Source: Apostichopus japonicus (lineage: Eukaryota > Echinodermata > Holothuroidea > Aspidochirotida > Stichopodidae). Taken from it: a stretch of DNA of 64,000 bases. The position numbers were made by a program, and so were the translations under genes. The stretch is from contig NC_092576.1 in assembly GCF_037975245.1 (NCBI RefSeq), forward strand, positions 39,701,611 to 39,765,610, given 5' to 3'. The notes below the pieces were generated by a model. The model ran no database searches. It was not told where the DNA came from and saw only the letters and a program-made list of their open reading frames with translations. Position 1 is the stretch's first letter. Each line of letters opens with the position of its first letter. Positions 19,401-59,737 of this stretch are shown here, in pieces.

Positions 19401-22400
19401 TTTTGAATGCAGTATGCTCCTTAAATATCTTACCTTGTCAATTTCTTCAAAATTCCATATATCAAACTGTAGAATTTGAAACCATGTTAATTTTCTCAAT
19501 GCCGGTTACCATGGCAATATGATTTATTGTATTTAATAATCTTGTTTTGTTATTTGATGGTTGTTTTGATCTACTAATATTTTCCAGTTTCTGCTGTGTG
19601 CAACTGTATTAATCTATGCTTTAACATCCTTACTGTCTTCTCGCAGCAAAAGCAAAAATATTTCATCACCTTAGTAACCTATACCCATAGCGACTATGAA
19701 ACTGCAGAAACTAGACACTAACTCCGGTTTCCAAGGGTTACAAAATGGTTCATTCTGTCTTTGTGGGGTTTTTTTTTAATCTAAACATGAAAATTGGATC
19801 GGGGAGAAAGGGTTTCCTTTAAAGGGGAAGTAAACGTAAAACTGTTGTCTTGAGACATCAAGTGATAGAAATAACGCTCCCTTCGAATTATTCTTTGATA
19901 TGGAATGGAACAATGAGAAGATGGAACAAAAAATTTGCTAATTTTTAGTGACAGAAAAAACCGGTCATCATTGTCACCCACACATGGAAGAAATTTTTAG
20001 ACACAGAATAACGAAAAACAAAAATTTTTTGCTATTGTTGAAATTTTTTGGCATGTACGATAAGTGCAATTTTTACGACTGGAATGATGTAGTTACGAAT
20101 AATAGGTGGCAGTGCTACTACGTAACTGAAATAAAAAAATTTAAATAAAATTTAAAGAGAAAAGATGTTTGGGTAGAATGGAATGACTATCACTAAAAGT
20201 TGAAGGTTTACAGTCTTGTTCAAGGCCAAGGCCCCCCACACGACTTTAGACCACTTAACCCCTGGTCATTGGTAACTTGTCACACCCACACTCCAAGGTG
20301 TGCACAATTCAAACAATCTCTCCTGGGGCACCACAGTGCACCACAGCCACGTGTCCCCAGGGGGGCTTCTCATTAGGGTGCAGCCACAAACCTGCTCACA
20401 CAACTACATTTACAAGTTACCTCGCAGGTCCCCATTCATACACCTGGGTGAAGAGAGGCAATGGAGATAAAGTGCCTTGCCCGAGGACACAACATATTGA
20501 TCTGGCCAGGACTCGAACCTGTAATCCTTAGATTGCAAGTCCATTTGCCTTAACCACTGGACCACAAGGCCTGTGTTACATTTTCATTACATTACATAGG
20601 ATGTAATATAGTATATATATAAGCCCAACTTTGGAGATTGGGGTACACTCAATCAATCAATCAATAGTCATAAGCCAATTGGCCCATTCACATGAAAGCA
20701 ATAGATCAAGTGACACTATTGGTTAAGACAACGACAGTAAGTGTTGTCAGCATTTGAAACTGTTTACATTCGTAGGGTCATTGTGTCATTATTTTGGGAT
20801 TCAACCTCTGAAGATATGTATTACGAATCTGACCTCATGAATCGATTGTAATTATATAACTTTCAAGAAAATACAGCACAAACTGGAAATATCAAAACAG
20901 GACTTGGTGGGAAAATAAACCAAGCACTTCAACACATGAGGGCCAGGGTTCGAATCCCGGTGGAGGCTGGAAGTTTTGCACTGTTTCTGTAGGTATATAG
21001 ACACAGTGATTATAATTCTATTGTACAATAACAGTACAAGACGGTGACCACATGACCACAAAACTGAGGAAATATGTCTTGATTGCAATGAAAGAAAATG
21101 ACTTCACCTGTTTTGCACTTGCGAATTCCAAAACTTGTAAAGTTGATCTCTGAAGTAATTGACTGTCATCGCTATGTACGTGGACCACTTTAGAGGCCAA
21201 CTTTGTGATTGCATCAACAATCTTCTCATTTTTATAGTCTTGTTCCAGCATACACATCATAGCAAACTTTTCATGTTTAAGGTTGTCTTGCAGATAATTT
21301 ACAATTTTACCCGAAGCAGTTTTATTAAGACCACAGGCAAATCTGTAAACATAGTGAAGTTCAAAGGGATCCAAACAATGGAGCAGTTCAGCTACAGTCT
21401 GACTCTCTGTTGTAGCAGAGGTTGGAGATTCTTGAGATAGATAATCAGCAATGTAGTGTGCAGCATACCACTCACAGAACAATTTGTGGTAGAATCTGAC
21501 TTCATTTTTGTAGAGAAATTGATCACCAGTCAGAACTTCTTCCTCAAAAAATATTCCAGTTTTAAGGTACTGCTCATAAAAGTCATCCCCAAGTCCTTCT
21601 CTCAGGGAAGTACTATACCACACAATCAGTTGGTTTTTACCGCTCAATGCCTCAAAAGCAGCCTTGTTCAACTCATCATGTTTTGAGCCAAAACATACTT
21701 TTTAATTGTTTTGTTCATCAAATGACTATGTAAGCAAGCTATCACATTACGAAAGAAGCTAGTAACTGATTTGAATGTCTTCAAGTCTTTGTTCTCGTGG
21801 CTCATGTGAGCAAACAAAACAAACAACAAAGGAACTTGACACAAGTCACCGAGTAGAGGGTTTCGTTGGAATTTAAGTATTATTTCCCTGGCGGCTTGTT
21901 CGTCACCCTGTACAACTGCTTTTCGAATATATTGATCTCGGATATCCTCGTTGAAACCTGTTAAACATATTCAATCAGTATGCGGTGCAAATTCTTTCGG
22001 CAGGTAGAAAGGCCTGGTAGTCAGAATGACGTCTATATCCTGCAACATTTCTCTCCGAAGGATAAGAGAAATATCAGTCTCTTGATCGTCTTTATCAGGG
22101 TATTCGTCAAATCCATCCAAAATAACCAACACACCTGAACAATTCTTTATGATTGATTCCACAATATCCTCACTCAGATCTGAGTCTCTGGGTAATATAA
22201 AACGCTGTATTGCTTGGTATATTGACTTCACCCCTCTCAGTTGTCTTAGCCGCAGGTAAAGAAGTATCAGTACGTTTCTTAAAGGGGATTTTGGAACTCT
22301 TTGGCACCAATCGTATGCAAGCTGTAGTGTCAGTGTTGATTTTCCATATCCGGCTTTGCCCTCTATAATTTGCCTACCACAATTCTCAGGTTACTTTAGT

Positions 22401-25400
22401 AGTTCATGATGTGACTCAATGCAATGTAGTGGGCAGCATACCACTCACAGAACAATTTGTGGTAGAATCTGACTTCCTTTTTGTAGAGAAATTGATCACC
22501 AGTCAAAACTTCTTCCTCAAAAAATATTCCAGTTTTAAGGTACTGCTCATAAAAGTCATCCCGAAGTCGTTTTCTCAGGGAAGTACTATACCACACAATC
22601 AGTTGGTTTTTACCGCTCAATGCCTCAAAAGCAGCCTTGTTCAACTCATCATGTTTTGAGCCAAAACATACCCTTTTCAATTGTTTTGTTCATCAAATGA
22701 CTATGTAAGCAAGCTATCACATTACGAAAGAAACTAGTAACGGATTTGACTGTCTTCAAGTCTTTGTTCTCGTGGCTCATGTGAGCAAACAAAACAAACA
22801 GCAAAGGAACTTGACACAAGTCACCGAGTAGAGGGTTTCGTTGGAGTTTAAGTATTATTTCCCTGGCGGCGTGTTCGTCACCCTGTACAACTGCTTTTCG
22901 AATATATTGATCTCGGATGTCCTCGTTGAAACCTGTTAAACGTAAACGATCAGTATGCGGTGCAAATTCTTTCGGCAAGTAGAAAGGCCTGGTTGTCAGA
23001 ATGACGTCTATTTCCTGCAACATTTCTCTCCGAAGGATAAGAGAAATATCAGTCTCTTGATCATCTTTATCAGGGTATTCGTCAAATCCATCCAAAATAA
23101 CCAATTGATGCACCTGAACAATTCTTTATGATTGATTCCACAATATCCTCACTCAGATCTGAGTCTCTGGGTAATATAAAACGCCGTATTGCTTGGTATA
23201 TTGACTTCACTCCTCTCAGTTGTCTTAGCCGCAGGTAAATAAATATCGGTACATTCCTTAAAGGGGATTTTGGAACTCTTTGGCACCAATCGTATGCAAG
23301 CTGTAGTGTCAGTGTTGATTTTCCATATCCGGCTTTGCCCTCTATAATTTGCCTACCACAATTCTCAGGTTACTTTAGTAGTTCATGATGTGACTCAATG
23401 CAATGTAGTGGGCAGCATACCACTCACAGAACAATTTGTGGTAGAATCTGACTTCCTTTTTGTAGAGAAATTGATCACCAGTCAAAACTTCTTCCTCAAA
23501 AAATATTCCAGTTTTAAGGTACTGCTCATAAAAGTCATCCCGAAGTCGTTTTCTCAGGGAAGTACTATACCACACAATCAGTTGGTTTTTACCGCTCAAT
23601 GCCTCAAAAGCAGCCTTGTTCAACTCATCATGTTTTGAGCCAAAACATACCCTTTTCAATTGTTTTGTTCATCAAATGACTATGTAAGCAAGCTATCACA
23701 TTACGAAAGAAACTAGTAACGGATTTGACTGTCTTCAAGTCTTTGTTCTCGTGGCTCATGTGAGCAAACAAAACAAACAGCAAAGGAACTTGACACAAGT
23801 CACCGAGTAGAGGGTTTCGTTGGAGTTTAAGTATTATTTCCCTGGCGGCGTGTTCGTCACCCTGTACAACTGCTTTTCGAATATATTGATCTCGGATGTC
23901 CTCGTTGAAACCTGTTAAACGTAAACGATCAGTATGCGGTGCAAATTCTTTCGGCAAGTAGAAAGGCCTGGTTGTCAGAATGACGTCTATTTCCTGCAAC
24001 ATTTCTCTCCGAAGGATAAGAGAAATATCAGTCTCTTGATCATCTTTATCAGGGTATTCGTCAAATCCATCCAAAATAACCAATTGATGCACCTGAACAA
24101 TTCTTTATGATTGATTCCACAATATCCTCACTCAGATCTGAGTCTCTGGGTAATATAAAACGCCGTATTGCTTGGTATATTGACTTCACTCCTCTCAGTT
24201 GTCTTAGCCGCAGGTAAATAAATATCGGTACATTCCTTAAAGGGGATTTTGGAACTCTTTGGCACCAATCGTATGCAAGCTGTAGTGTCAGTGTTGATTT
24301 TCCATATCCGGCTTTGCCCTCTATAATTTGCCTACCACAATTCTCAGGTTACTTTAGTAGTTCATGATGTGACTCAATGCAATGTAGTGGGCAGCATACC
24401 ACTCACAGAACAATTTGTGGTAGAATCTGACTTCCTTTTTGTAGAGAAATTGATCACCAGTCAAAACTTCTTCCTCAAAAAATATTCCAGTTTTAAGGTA
24501 CTGCTCATAAAAGTCATCCCGAAGTCGTTTTCTCAGGGAAGTACTATACCACACAATCAGTTGGTTTTTACCGCTCAATGCCTCAAAAGCAGCCTTGTTC
24601 AACTCATCATGTTTTGAGCCAAAACATACCCTTTTCAATTGTTTTGTTCATCAAATGACTATGTAAGCAAGCTATCACATTACGAAAGAAACTAGTAACG
24701 GATTTGACTGTCTTCAAGTCTTTGTTCTCGTGGCTCATGTGAGCAAACAAAACAAACAACAAAGGAACTTGACACAAGTCACCGAGTAGAGGGTTTCGTT
24801 GGAGTTTAAGTATTATTTCCCTGGCGGCGTGTTCGTCACCCTGTACAACTGCTTTTCGAATATATTGATCTCGGATGTCCTCGTTGAAACCTGTTAAACG
24901 TAAACGATCAGTATGCGGTGCAAATTCTTTCGGCAAGTAGAAAGGCCTGGTTGTCAGAATGACGTCTATTTCCTGCAACATTTCTCTCCGAAGGATAAGA
25001 GAAATATCAGTCTCTTGATCATCTTTATCAGGGTATTCATCAAATCCATCCAAAATAACCAATTGATGCACCTGAACAATTCTTTATGATTGATTCCACA
25101 ATATCCTCACTCAGATCTGAGTCTCTGGGTAATATAAAACGCCGTATTGCTTGGTATATTGACTTCACTCCTCTCAGTTGTCTTAGCCGCAGGTAAATAA
25201 ATATCGGTACATTCCTTAAAGGGGATTTTGGAACTCTTTGGCACCAATCGTATGCAAGCTGTATTGTCAGTGTTGCTTTACCATATCCGGCTTCGCCCTC
25301 AATAATTTGCCTACCACAATTCTCAGGTTACTTTAGTAGTTCATGATGTGACTCTAAAAGTTTCCAAATTTTGTTTCCATGTGCTTGTTCAACTAACCGT

Positions 25401-53611: not shown

Positions 53612-56600
53612 CTCATGAGACCGCTAGCAACTCCCAGGAGTTGTGGTGCACTTGCCCCACTCACCACCCACGCATTTACACATCTTGCACGTGGGATTAT
53701 CTCCGTTAGGGTTCTTAGGGGTCACTTGAATCGAATTTTCCACACAACCATCAGCTGCAGATAACATAATAATAATAGTGATAATGAAAATAATAATGAT
53801 AATAATAATAGTAATAATGATGATGATGATGATAATAATAATAGACCCCGTCAGAAAAAAACCATTAGGTGGGAGGTTGGGGAGGGGGGGGGGGGGTGTT
53901 CAAATAGATTTCTATCTGGTCTTAGATTGGTTTGTTAACATCTTACCTACAATTCCATCAGATAACATTTTCGTTTGACAAACGTCGATAATATAGAAAG
54001 CTGTCTAGCCCACGAAAAACACAAGTTAAAAAACAAAAAGACATTTAGCATTGGTGCGTTTTAATAGAATTGCGTATCTATATATAATACTTCAGTTTGC
54101 AAATGAGAAATTTATAGAGGTGGTTTTATAACCAAAGAAAATTTCCTGTTTGGAAAAGCAAAACTGCAGACCAAGAACTCTCTGTGTCAAAAAGAATGGT
54201 GGAAAAGCTTCCGAAATGCCCTGAATTATTAAATCATTTAAAATTCGTTATTACATATTGAAAAGCGTCTCTCCTTGAAAAGCACTAATCATCTGATTAA
54301 GTATGATATTTTGAGAACTTTATTCAGCTTTTGTTTTATGCATTCTGAAGAGTAACTGCTTCAAGCGGCTCTCACCAATCGCCTTTCATTGTTTTAAATT
54401 TAATAATACTACATATTGCATTCAATGTATTCTGTACCTTATACTTTCTTGAGCGATAGAAAATAAATGACGGGGAAAAACATCGTGTATCTAGTATACC
54501 AATGACGTTATAACCAAAAGATTTGGCATATAGCCAAGTCTCAATACTTCCTATAACAGGGGTTCCCTAACTGGGGTGTATGAACCCCAGGGGGGGGGGT
54601 GCGTGAGTCCATCCCAGGGGTTTCGTGAGACGTTTCTGAAAGTCAAAACTATAGTACTTTTTGTTGAACTAAAATCTGATATATCATATAATTTAGTAAT
54701 GTTCGAAAGTGGTACCTCTCGACAAACTCTTTATGCGTTCCATACGCATATGTTGCCATAGTAGTACCGTGCAGTGCATGTGATCAATAACTGAATTATG
54801 AAACAGACACAGGCTGTTATGCGTATTATAGTATAATAATGACTCAGATCGTGTCTCGAAAAGTTGGGGGTTCGTGGACAACTCTGACATCCACAGGGGG
54901 TTCGTGGGGGCATAAAGTTAGGGAAACCCTGTTCTATTAGGTAAGAATTGTATTTTGGTTTAAGTAACATGATGTTATATATATATATAATCTATACGTT
55001 ACCTTGAACCATCATGATGGTAGCTGTGAGCACAAGAAGAGCAAGGCAGATGAATCGAATGGCGGCCATTTTTGATGTCTCGATTGAGGTGGTTAGTCTG
55101 TGAATGAATTATGAAAGATATATTAATATCACCGATAATATTGACCAATTACGCTTTCCATGTCAGTACGTGTTATAGACAACTCTTATTCATATTGTCA
55201 GCTGATATCCATGGAAACGTTAAGGTGCTGCCAGCATCTAACATTCACACAAATCATGTAAGAAAACAAACGCTATAGAGTCAAATATGATACAGTCACA
55301 AACACTATACAATCAAAAGTTATATAGTCGGAACGATTGAAACAGTCCAAGACTAATGTAAAACACTATGTATGCAAAGACTAACACAGTCAAGCTCTGT
55401 ACAATCAAACACTGTAGAGTCAAAGACTAAACATGTAGAACACGTTACAGTCCACGACCATACAGTCAGATACAGTGGAGTAGGAAAAACTATTTATTCA
55501 ACTTCTGTATTATTTGTATGTATGTATCTTTAGATACTCCTGCAAGCAGGAGCTAGCGAAGAAGCCATCATTGGCTTATCAAAGCCGCAAGCTGACTGAA
55601 GTCAGTCTCTTAGATTCATATTTAACGTCCATGGTTATGAATTGTCAATTGTCAACAACTCTGTACCTGGACGACGTACATTAATCTTGGAGCGACTCGA
55701 ACTCGGGACCTTATAATTGAATGACTATACATTACAATAGACTATAAGGTATAAAGCACCATATAATCAAAGATTGATTACAGTCAAGAACTATATACAG
55801 TCGTAACTATACAGTTCAATAATATAAAATGTAAGACATAATGAGGGAAATCATTTAATCATATAACGACACCAAGACAAATATTAAGTTGAGGAAATTT
55901 ACTAAAAGACAAAATAAGATCATTTCTTCCAAAATTTCAAACATTGTAAACATTAAGTATTAACTTGTTTAATAAACAAAATATCATCCGAATCTTAATA
56001 TGCAAATTAGACCTACTCTAGTTTTAAAATCGTGCATGTCACACAATATAGTAACTGGGAGGACTGGAACGTTTATTAAGTACATAAACGAAACAAAAAT
56101 ATGCATATCAGATCTGGGGCGAAATATTAGTTGAAAACCTAAGTGAATACATATTCTGTATGTTTGTGATAGAACATGTTAAATTATTGAGTAAATGCTT
56201 ATTCTTTTCTATATTCTAAACATTTTTCTTGCACTGATACTTTTTTTTTAATATAAAAAGTAGTAGTAATAACTTTTTGTGAAGAATAAAAAACTTTTTC
56301 TTTAATGGTATTATTTGAAAACAACGTTAAATATGAAAATATCATGCTAATTACCCTAGAAATACAGTTGATATCACGTAATATAACTAACACTATATTT
56401 AAATGAAACAAAGTTACTTCAGAAAGCAATTCGATGAAACACACGAAATTGCAACAAAGGCTGGAAAATTGCCATGTTAAACACGAGCATTACCTCAGCT
56501 ACTTGCAGGTAAAGTCTTATAGTAAGGGGAATATTTTTCTATATTTGGACTTTGAAGTTTCCAATGAAAACTTAAGTCCTAACCTCTGCATCACCTTTCT

Positions 56601-57769
56601 AAATCTATAAATGTTTATTATTTGTTTATCATCATCCATGCTCAGACAAAAGTTGTTTTTTTTCTAATTCTGGAAATACTTGCTAAGTATACTTTATCTT
56701 GAGTTATAAGATAAACATCAACAAATATTGGCATTTGAGAATCAGGTAATAATTCAAATTTCATTGACGTCTTAACCACAAGCTAGGATATACCATACAA
56801 CTGAATATAGAACACGAGGAACCAGATGAGTAATGAAACAAAAAAAGGTAAAACATACTTCATAACAGCCTGGAAAATAGGTTAAACTATTTTAAAATAG
56901 GTTTAAAATATTCGTTAAAATATTTGTTGAAATAGGTATAACGTAGGTGAACAAATATCAAATAGGTTAAAATATTCGAATGCTAACACCAAATGGTCGT
57001 AAAAGAAACTGTCTCTCTTATTGGAATCAATTATTAATTCGACTTGCATATGATTTAGGCGACTTATTTAGCTATAGGAGATAATTCTGTCCCTGCTGCA
57101 ATACAATAAACAATTAGTAAATTGTGAACAATTTGTTTGACTTGCCAAATTTCATTTCAAGAATTAATTTTTAAGTCAGGAAGTTTTCCAATTAGCTAAT
57201 TAAATGTAAGCAATACTTTACAATATGTAAGAATTATTTTGGCAGACATTATGTTAACACTTTGATTCCGAACCACTAATTACTCATTAACCTTTACACT
57301 CTTGAAAGAAATCTAGGAGCCAGTTGCCTAACTTCGACGAATAGTATATTATTTTAAATTAAGTTTAGGAAAATTCCTGGTCAATTCCGCAACAATCTGT
57401 TTAAGATATTAAGGTAGCAAAATGTTATGTTCGACAAATTCTGTCAGAAGAGAATTAAATTAATATGCTACATGTGATGAATTGTTTTTCTTATCAAAAT
57501 AAAAATATATTTTTTTTATGCAAATAAAATAAGAATTTACTGAAGAGAGAAATAGTCCATAGATTCCTCATAGAAATACAATCTTTTTAGTAAAAGCTAA
57601 CGAATATGATTTTTGATATCTGTTCACAGCAACGTCAAAAGAAATTAAAATAAGACATTATAATGTTACCAACTGATTATGAAATTAGATTTGAAACAAT
57701 TTTAAAAACAAAATGCTTACCTTCTCAGTAAAGTAGTAAGGTAGTATAGATAGGTCTTCAGTCAGGAAT
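53612..57769 (-). CDS. Small secreted cysteine-rich peptide gene (overview)
   Basis: A minus-strand gene: TATA box, noncoding first exon (57,721-57,769), second exon with 5' UTR and signal peptide (55,003-55,097), third exon with the mature peptide and stop (53,612-53,754). The phase 1 junction fits. The product is 65 residues: MAAIRFICLALLVLTATIMM is a clear hydrophobic signal peptide, likely cleaved near QGA|DGC. The mature part is about 41 residues with six cysteines (full-length positions 26, 45, 48, 50, 58, 65; spacing C-x18-C-x2-C-x1-C-x7-C-x6-C). The CxxCxC core recalls single von Willebrand C or small defence-type peptides, but I cannot assign a family. It converges with EPS8. A donor 12 nt after the stop (GAG|GTAAGC) implies a spliced 3' UTR. 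Confidence 0.75.
53624..53754 (-). CDS. Cys-rich peptide gene, exon 3 coding part
   Basis: Acceptor TTATCTGCAG ends at 53,755. In phase 1 the exon encodes DGCVENSIQVTPKNPNGDNP, then TCKMCKCVGGEWGKCTTTPG and SC, with stop TAG at 53,626-53,624. All six cysteines are in this exon. The following GAGGTAAGC donor starts at 53,611. Confidence 0.78.
53755..55002 (-). other. Intron 2 of the Cys-rich peptide gene
   Basis: Contains a taa/gat trinucleotide run (53,766-53,845), a G run (53,885) and a hAT MITE (54,557-54,931). No coding signal. Confidence 0.6.
54557..54931. mobile_element. hAT-type MITE, 375 bp
   Basis: Ends CAGGGGTTCCCTAAC and GTTAGGGAAACCCTG are inverted. Flanks tcctataa and ttctatta match at six of eight positions, a decayed 8-bp duplication. 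Confidence 0.82.
55003..55069 (-). CDS. Cys-rich peptide gene, exon 2 coding part (signal peptide)
   Basis: ATG at 55,069-55,067 follows CATCAAAA, a good Kozak context (A at -3). It encodes 22 residues plus one nucleotide: basic start MAAIR, then a hydrophobic core FICLALLVLTATIMM. Donor CAAG|GTAACG at 55,002. The 5' UTR part runs to 55,097 after acceptor TTCATTCACAG. Confidence 0.8.
55098..57720 (-). other. Intron 1 of the Cys-rich peptide gene
   Basis: About 2.6 kb of AT-rich sequence. It holds a degenerate acagtcaaagactata-type repeat (55,290-55,460) and a possible SINE piece with B box GAGTTCGAGTC on the minus strand (55,520-55,720, including tcctgcaagcaggagctagc). I see no exon. Confidence 0.5.
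57721..57769 (-). other. Noncoding first exon of the Cys-rich peptide gene
   Basis: Runs from a predicted start at about 57,769 to donor GAGAAG|GTAAGC (GT at 57,720-57,719). It has no ATG in frame with the peptide. Length about 49 nt; the start is inferred from the TATA and initiator spacing. Confidence 0.6.
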
Positions 57770-57802
57770 GAAGCAGAAACGACGAAAGTTCCCCTTTTTA
57801 TA
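57766..57802 (-). promoter_or_regulatory. TATA box and initiator of the Cys-rich peptide gene
   Basis: The minus strand carries TATAAAAAG (57,802-57,794) and, 33 bp after its first T, an initiator-like TTCATTC (57,772-57,766) with A at 57,769. A donor follows 49 nt later. This is the textbook layout of a strongly regulated metazoan promoter. Confidence 0.65.
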
Positions 57803-58329
57803 GAAACTGGGCGATAATAAATAATAATAATAATACACAACAAAAATGTGGGCAATCTGTTAATTAAAAAAGGGAAAATGTTTATCTTTTTAATTGGTTT
57901 ATTTTGTAATATTCCTTTGTTTTTCATACTTTTTCTTCCTGTTTGTTTTCTTTAAATTTTTAAATTAACGTTTTCTTGGGTAACGATATGCTGGGTGGTT
58001 TTAGAAATTTCCTTTAAAGTTTACAAAGTTCAGTTTCAGCACGAGAAACTACTAGTGCGGGTCTGTATTAATGTTATCTTCGTTCAGGCATGAGGATATT
58101 TTTCTAGCTTCTTTATATCTTCTATTCAACATCACTGACCTTAATTAAATGTAACCATTGGCCATGTGTTTTATCTTTACTGGTTTTTGCCTTGAAAATT
58201 GTCATTCGTTGGTCTGTTTACCACAGTTCATGACTTCATGATAAACAAATGTATATAGATATCGAAACTTCAGTCTTCAAAATTGTACATATCTTTTGGC
58301 TAGAAGTTTCAGCTTTAGCCTATTACTTA

Positions 58330-58615
58330 TATATAAGTTACCACTGATATATGTGTTATCACCTATGTATGTGTTATCACTTATTTATGTGTTATCACTT
58401 ATTTATGTGTTATCACTCATATATGTGTTATCACTCATATATGTGTAATCACATAAATAGAGATAGATGTTATCGTTCATGTATGTGTAATCTTATTTAC
58501 ATATATGTTATCACTTTTCATCACTCATATATGTGTTTTCACTCATGTTATCACATTTATATGTGTTATCACTCATATATGTGTAATCACATATATATGT
58601 GGTATCACTTATGTC
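58330..58615 (+). repeat. Minisatellite of atatgtgttatcactc units
   Basis: About 15 copies of an 18-bp unit, close to tatatgtgttatcactca. The 107-residue frame across it is an artefact of the repeat. Confidence 0.9.
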
Positions 58616-58626
58616 ACAGTGTTCTG

Positions 58627-58631
<5 letters not shown>

Positions 58632-58668
<37 letters not shown>
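58632..58668. repeat. (TA)n microsatellite
   Basis: About 37 bp of alternating TA directly after the minisatellite. Confidence 0.95.
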
Positions 58669-58670
<2 letters not shown>

Positions 58671-59737
58671 TTAGTATCACGGCGAATAAATTTGATTAAT
58701 TATGTCTCAGAAAGAACTTCATCACCATGCTGTCATTTTTTCCGGTATCGCTTTACAGATGGTTGAAACCAAAAAGGAAAGACCCATCCAAAGGAAGGAA
58801 GGGCTGGAGAGCTAAGCTAATTAAAGCAAAATTAAAGAGAGCAAGATAGACAAAGAGAAACAAAAGAAAGCGAATTGAGGATAACAAAGCACGAAGACAA
58901 TTCTTGAATTGTAACATATTGTCTTTCAATCCTCTCCTTTGGATTCAAGCTGTTGGTTACTGTTTATGGCTGTTCTTCATTTGAGAAAGTGCACAACATT
59001 TGCGACGTACCTAAAGGGTGACTTGAATTGCAACATTGACTTTGATTTGTACTTCTATCAGTCTAGGTGTTGCTATACCACTTTTACTTTCTTAGGAAGT
59101 AATAATTTTAGCAATGGACAGAAGGAGGGGAGGGGAGCCTCATCTAGCTTTGCAACGCCACAACTACTGCAGGTTAGCAAACGAATCAAGAAAGAAAATA
59201 AATTTAATTTTAAATACATTTGTTAGTAAATGAAAGCCGATAGAGTAGGGGTAAAGAAGACAACCAAATAAGTCTCAGACTGGAATCGGAAGAAATCGTA
59301 AAGACAAAGGCAGAAATACTGGCAGCTAGAGAAGGGGGCAAGCTAACTTCACTTTGAGACCCCCCCCCCTACAGCCCTGGCAATACCCCTTCTCCTAGGA
59401 ACATAAACCAAATTCAATGCAGGTGGCTAGGCTGTTCCTCGGAAGTAAACTTCAGTTCCGGAGTTTTACTCACAAGCCCTTTAGCCACTAGGTTCATAAA
59501 CTAGGGGCATCCTTCCCTTTGCCAGAGAGGACGCCTCTTCCCTCTTCATAAAGTCGAGTTTGTCTAGGAAAGATTTAAATTATTCTTAGCATAACTCTTA
59601 CGAAGTAGGTACTTGAGGAGTAGAATTGCATCGTTTAAATACTTTCTTGTTGGTCAAAAAGTTGAAAATGATTTATCGCTTCAAGCAGCTGTGTTGTGGC
59701 ACTCGGCTGCACCCGATACTCGTGGCTCATGCGTTCA
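58669..59737. other. Intergenic stretch, nothing recognised
   Basis: A purine-rich part (58,765-58,900) and a 95-residue plus-strand frame at 58,939-59,226 without recognisable family, splice context or codon pattern. I see no other structure. Confidence 0.5.

Follow-up and report, generated by a model that had tools for sequence, protein, structure and literature searches.

In the sea cucumber Apostichopus japonicus, one study (PMC5638244) reports a tandem set of 11 PSP94-like genes on Scaffold889, so called for their cysteine topology, and a more than 10,000-fold rise of these genes 0-3 days after evisceration, in early gut regeneration. Arthropod SVWC (Vago) proteins have eight cysteines in four disulfides and are characterised as cytokine-like immune proteins (PMC13115929). 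How does a six-cysteine gene of A. japonicus compare with these? The gene, here called m1, lies in a 64,000-nucleotide stretch of contig NC_092576.1 (C16:39701611-39765610; the window, to which unprefixed positions refer). A sequence-only reading of the window had proposed m1 as an unrecognised gene for a secreted peptide. That reading, whose window excluded the other four genes, missed that m1 is one of five tandem genes on a single strand, spread over about 50 kb (C16:39755234-39805550). We put the probability of the joint reading, a real family of secreted peptides with a fold resembling half a VWC domain, at roughly 0.6.

When the 43-residue m1 domain was searched against the whole genome (671,581,487 bases, 35 contigs), it returned itself and five weak matches, one of them on the strand of m1, 11.6 kb upstream. 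The flanks were then read as 183,990 bases in one piece and three further 10-kb stretches, which held the paralogues m2 to m5, all outside the window, and no sixth member. m1 has the lowest coordinates of the cluster and is the last gene reading along the coding strand. Querying the genome with four single domains and with one signal exon turned up no family member outside the C16 cluster; the genome could not be searched with a profile, and divergent copies elsewhere could escape such queries. The coding parts of the paralogous six-cysteine exons are as follows.

C16:39766806-39766939, minus strand: m2
C16:39781328-39781437, minus strand: m3
C16:39790587-39790696, minus strand: m4
C16:39804255-39804370, minus strand: m5

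All five genes share one layout: a signal-peptide exon, a phase-1 intron, a single six-cysteine exon, and a stop directly after the last cysteine. The intron between the coding exons measures 746-1291 bases in the four paralogues and 1248 in m1, and the reading frame is intact in 5/5 genes. The cysteine frame is C-x14-18-C-x2-C-x1-C-x6-7-C-x6-7-C throughout. Within the domain all members keep the six cysteines and one Gly, and few other residues are conserved. An equivalent of the m1 signal exon is present in every gene; that of m2 is 81.6% identical to it over 49 nt (E 4.5e-8), with equal intron phase. A signal peptide (judged by hydrophobicity and layout), a short mature peptide, conserved cysteines and clustered copies recur in all five members. 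Conserved cysteine spacing in related sequences had been set beforehand as a test of m1, and it is present in paralogues of the same genome. The predicted precursors are MAAIRFICLALLVLTATIMMVQADGCVENSIQVTPKNPNGDNPTCKMCKCVGGEWGKCTTTPGSC (m1; 65 residues, translated from exons 2 and 3 up to the stop), MAAVRIICLAFLLLTVAAVMTVEAGGPCVGNVVKAQTRGYLSGSPSCRRCVCVNREWDCTITPGVTC (m2), MASVRFVFLVLMVLSAVSMFAMVNAGCAPNSFTYTPTHDGSCKVCQCVDGVYECAKEDGAC (m3), MASVRFVFLVLVVLSAVSMFAMVNAGCSPNTFTYTTTHDGRCKVCQCVSGEYECTKEDGPC (m4) and MASSVYMCLLVVVLLMTTMAYYVNAESCKSGSMTFTPIHGGKDCKVCRCKIGELDCLIEAGSC (m5). The model of m1 itself reads, in window numbering:

57795..57802, minus strand: predicted promoter, with the TATA box TATAAAAA seen in the sequence
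57721..57769, minus strand: exon 1, predicted to be noncoding; 5' end approximate, taken from the initiator of the sequence-only reading; donor AAG/GTAAGC
55098..57720, minus strand: intron 1, in the 5' untranslated region (UTR); contains a repeat at about 55563-55721
55003..55097, minus strand: exon 2, end of the 5'UTR and signal peptide MAAIRFICLALLVLTATIMMVQ; ATG at 55069; acceptor ..TTCACAG; phase-1 donor CAAG/GTAACG
53755..55002, minus strand: intron 2, phase 1, 1248 bases
53612..53754, minus strand: exon 3, the entire six-cysteine domain; acceptor CTGCAG; stop TAG ending at 53624; donor-like GAG/GTAAGC 12 nt on (3'UTR intron)
53624..53754, minus strand: coding part of exon 3, ADGCVENSIQVTPKNPNGDNPTCKMCKCVGGEWGKCTTTPGSC and the stop; first codon shared with exon 2

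On inspection of the sequence, the features named for m1 were all found at the positions claimed for them, including TATAAAAAG, which runs down from 57802. The statement that all six cysteines lie in the exon following the signal peptide holds for the predicted mature peptide, where they are spaced 18-2-1-7-6; it does not hold for the precursor, which has a seventh cysteine within the signal peptide.

Could the m1 model be due to chance, or the gene be dead? Its exons are short, and low-complexity DNA adjoins the acceptor of exon 3. A strict pattern, the cysteine frame followed by a stop, was fixed only after the five members were known; it occurs once in the window versus 0 times in 60 Markov-simulated windows of the same dinucleotide make-up, and five times in the 183,990-base stretch versus none in the same stretch reversed. 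With the stop dropped and the six-cysteine pattern loosened, the same five are found, and one match also appears in the reversed control, which leaves chance some room. To avoid circularity, the profile was rebuilt without each member in turn and run against 6,170 open reading frames (ORFs). The member left out always ranked fifth, directly after the four that built the profile, with E-values of 1.2e-6 (m1), 1.7e-4 (m2), 2.4e-15 (m3), 2.4e-13 (m4) and 4.4e-7 (m5); the best ORF outside the family reached E 0.16-0.53. A profile of whole precursors lists 5/5 signal exons as separate ORFs (E 6.1e-11 to 6.8e-7), values that are not independent, as these exons were in the profile. Decisive for m1 are its four tandem paralogues of the same layout. 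With the strict frame absent from the simulated windows and all five reading frames intact, we regard a chance model or dead gene as highly improbable, and the cluster is, judging by its sequence, very probably a real and expressed gene family.

The sequence-only reading had also given m1 a promoter of its own with a TATA box. This TATA-containing layout is upheld, and a near-equal one stands at m2. We scanned the 183,990 bases for a strict TATAAA[AT] with a strong donor 70-95 nt downstream, and found five such sites on the minus (gene) strand versus one on the plus strand. Of the five minus-strand sites, four precede a family ATG by no more than 3 kb (m1, m2, m3, m5) and the fifth lies just downstream of m3; m4 has no site under this rule. 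The TATA box stands at -2733 from the ATG in m1 and at -2724 in m2, and the donor follows it by 82 and 81 nt, respectively. Because these distances match so closely, a noncoding first exon is credible in m1 and m2; the case is weak in m3 and m5. The promoter stretches of m1 and m2 gave no BLAST alignment with each other. At the other end of the genes, a GTAA or GTRAG donor-like site follows the stop by 4-13 nt in four of the five, m2 having only the weaker AAAG/GTACTG; the chance frequency of such a site is 12% among 26-nt stretches. Since the donor-like sites follow the stops so closely, a 3'UTR intron is probable in the family. The m1 model ends at its donor-like site, 12 nt beyond the stop, which implies a further 3'UTR exon; this exon was not located for m1. 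The stop would lie so close to the junction that nonsense-mediated decay is not to be expected. Two repeats were seen beside these elements. A 159-bp repeat in intron 1 (55563-55721) is 92% identical to a repeat upstream of the m2 signal exon and lies near a GTTCGAGTC stretch, which we take to resemble a tRNA B box, the repeat perhaps being a tRNA-derived short interspersed element. An array of 18-base tandem repeats occupies 58300-58678, upstream of the m1 promoter.

To what known domain is the six-cysteine module related? None of the five precursors reaches any Pfam cut-off, and searching PDB sequences with m1, or with a profile built from four members, returned short or spurious matches only; the sequence-only reading, too, had not recognised the family. 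Judged by such searches, the m1-m5 family appears to be undescribed. By sequence, its cysteine frame is closest to the first half (subdomain 1) of VWC domains, such as those of collagen IIA, chordin and NELL2, with a longer last loop. In four PDB stretches this first half reads C-x16-20-C-x2-C-x1-C-x6-C-x4-C. The C2-C3 and C3-C4 spacings equal those of the family, C4-C5 is equal in 4/5 members, and C1-C2 overlaps (16-20 versus 14-18), whereas the C5-C6 loop is 4 residues in VWC and 6-7 in the family. Members m3-m5 also share C-x-x-G-x-[aromatic/aliphatic]-x-C with the VWC first half. In contrast to VWC, the second half with its four further cysteines is missing, and the family domain stands alone. 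A full VWC domain was rejected on this ground: the stop follows directly after the sixth cysteine in 5/5 genes, versus ten cysteines in the collagen IIA domain. None of the five precursors has a Pfam VWC match.

Does the likeness extend beyond the cysteines? Each member was compared with reference sets while its cysteines were held fixed and the remainder shuffled 1000 times; scores were summed over m1, m2, m3 and m5, with m4 omitted as a near-duplicate of m3. The observed sum was reached by 23/1000 shuffles for VWC (7 references), 132/1000 for pacifastin and 420/1000 for PSP94. The best values for single members were 40/1000 (m3, VWC), 44/1000 (m5, pacifastin) and 57/1000 (m2, PSP94), and in a separate run, against four VWC references, 13 to 186 of 500 shuffles per member reached the score. 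The VWC link beyond the cysteines is therefore marginal, a hint and no demonstration. A single-sequence AlphaFold model has three strands, with a mean predicted local distance difference test score (pLDDT) of 74.5 and a predicted template-modelling score (pTM) of 0.38; the model would be compatible with a VWC-half fold and does not prove it. On balance, we favour a VWC-half-like fold with some reserve, and a secreted, single-module peptide with considerably more assurance. Elsewhere in the genome, the region of C8:30876503-30876601 holds a single reading frame with three VWC-like repeats that look chordin-like.

Other cysteine-containing families were tried and rejected. Arthropod SVWC (Vago) proteins, like the family, are small secreted proteins with a single VWC-type module; membership fails on the cysteine number, as eight are needed in four disulfides and 5/5 mature domains have six. 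The strongest cysteine-domain hint in Pfam, the CFC domain (PF09443), covers 18 residues of one member (m5, residues 42-59; 19.7 bits, E 7.4e-4), lies below the curated cut-off of 23.2 bits, and has no match in the other four. Pacifastin inhibitors are marked by a short C1-C2 loop, a C-N-x-C motif and a short C5-C6 loop. They share with the family six cysteines and a C-x2-C-x-C-x7-C core, but four references are spaced 9-2-1-7-4, against 14-18, 2, 1, 6-7 and 6-7 in the family, and their C-N-x-C contrasts with K or R after C2. With both loops too long and no C-N-x-C, membership was dismissed.

Are m1-m5 then part of the PSP94-like family of the same species? The question arises because the 18-2-1 spacing of m1 and m2 is also that of the first domain of human and porcine PSP94 (beta-microseminoprotein, PF05825). 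There is more to recommend the idea: the species is the same, both are tandem clusters of small cysteine-rich secreted proteins, and, against PSP94 first domains, m2 and m4 are somewhat ahead of most of their own shuffles (reached by 57 and 69 of 1000). PSP94, however, has a CC doublet and a C-terminal domain exon. The doublet occurs in 0/5 family members, and the search for a second-domain exon within 6 kb downstream of the genes yielded only two chance-like patterns, both at m4; tblastn over the 183,990 bases gave nothing below E 0.37. PF05825 matches none of the five precursors, and, as given above, shuffling equals or exceeds the summed score in 420 of 1000 cases. Moreover, CC-bearing genes of PSP94 type sit elsewhere. 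A PF05825 search of the genome marked three places, all below threshold and none within the m1-m5 cluster. One diverged gene of PSP94 type was seen at C16:3479854-3482700, with a signal exon (MKSPILLGLVIILLFHQSESQCLWG), a first-domain exon with the CC doublet, and a second-domain exon, below the PF05825 cut-off in the six-frame search; like the m1-m5 genes, it has a phase-1 intron after its signal exon. Its first-domain exon, used as a query, found six near-identical tandem copies at C17:3534779-3711183 (E 0.04 to 0.12, 35-39% identity), a lower bound, and a weaker, more divergent copy at C17:2762608-2762712. The CC doublet is present in 7/7 of these C17 places, and the six cluster copies show C-x2-C-x-C; a second-domain-like exon is seen in 1/6 cluster stretches (L046) and at C17:2.76 Mb, in fetched stretches that extend only 1.5 kb past each match. 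The cluster at C17:3.53-3.71 Mb is probably the regeneration-induced Scaffold889 cluster, though it counts at least six copies versus the 11 reported. The m1-m5 cluster is set apart from the PSP94-like genes because it lacks both the CC doublet and a second-domain exon. Membership, as far as these sequence comparisons go, is largely refuted, and we consider it very improbable. The two families are confusable by cysteine pattern alone, and are now distinguished.

What might the peptides do? The sequence-only reading had suggested an inducible peptide of defence or signalling. The functional proposals overlap with the joint reading of gene family, secretion and fold. The signal peptide would be cleaved near the exon junction, leaving a mature peptide of about 36-44 residues with one small three-stranded sheet and three disulfides, in a frame of the kind seen in VWC first halves. 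By analogy with pacifastin and PSP94, the disulfides would pair cysteines 1-4, 2-6 and 3-5. Its C1-C2 and C5-C6 loops would be free to vary and may bind an extracellular partner. The TATA promoter may drive expression in bursts, and the secreted product may be an effector in the defence of epithelium, gut or wounds, with copies diversifying through duplication. The youngest pair, m3/m4, has nonsynonymous and synonymous divergences (dN, dS) of 0.027 and 0.211 in the signal part, and of 0.117 and 0.085 in the mature part, where 9/11 counted substitutions change the amino acid and none falls on a cysteine; the numbers are small. Defence and effector peptides typically keep their signal exon stable while the mature exon changes, and we read the family in this way because of that pattern. 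A defence or wound effector, rather than a signal or a protease inhibitor, remains a tentative choice to which we give somewhat less than even odds. The peptides could alternatively be secreted signals, either cytokine-like, as is the single-VWC SVWC/Vago group, or a growth-factor-binding VWC half. The VWC-first-half frame, the summed signal beyond the cysteines, best for VWC yet marginal, and the cytokine-like role described for SVWC proteins (PMC13115929) speak for this; the six cysteines in place of eight do not, and most loop residues change between neighbours, which would suit an effector more than the ligand of a single receptor. We think a signalling role unlikely.

Somewhat less likely still are pacifastin-like protease inhibitors, in which the C5-C6 loop would serve as reactive site and the target protease would depend on the residue two positions past C5, which varies between members (m1-m5: T, I, K, K, I). 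A contact residue that differs between copies is typical of inhibitor families; the central C-x2-C-x-C-x6-7-C frame is common to both, T follows C5 in m1, m2 and m4, and m5 and m3 outscore all but 44 and 65, respectively, of their 1000 shuffles. The loop lengths (C1-C2 14-18, not 9; C5-C6 6-7, not 4), K/R rather than N after C2, and the 132 of 1000 shuffles that reach the pacifastin sum argue against it. Returning to the effector reading, its fullest form would hold that half-VWC-derived, stand-alone and diversifying effectors make up an undescribed holothurian family, which arose alongside the PSP94-like cluster yet independently of it, both being built on one kind of cysteine frame, and which might act in the same wound and gut-regeneration response; we offer this as a speculative proposal, with the odds against it. 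Lineage-specific secreted peptides are readily overlooked by gene finders and are candidates in the unusual gut regeneration and immunity of sea cucumbers. The five-gene cluster supplies defined junctions and peptides that can be checked in existing A. japonicus RNA-seq and proteome data.

Two further features lie in the window. An EPS8-like gene has exons at 1301-38410 on the plus strand, where PTB, EPS8 spectrin-like and SAM domains exceed their cut-offs; an SH3 domain is divided between two exons, each half just below cut-off. Between exons of the EPS8-like gene, on the opposite strand (21974-25327, minus), sit fragments of NACHT-domain exons in near-identical tandem copies of 979 bases; both ORFs tested (2/2) exceed the Pfam cut-off.

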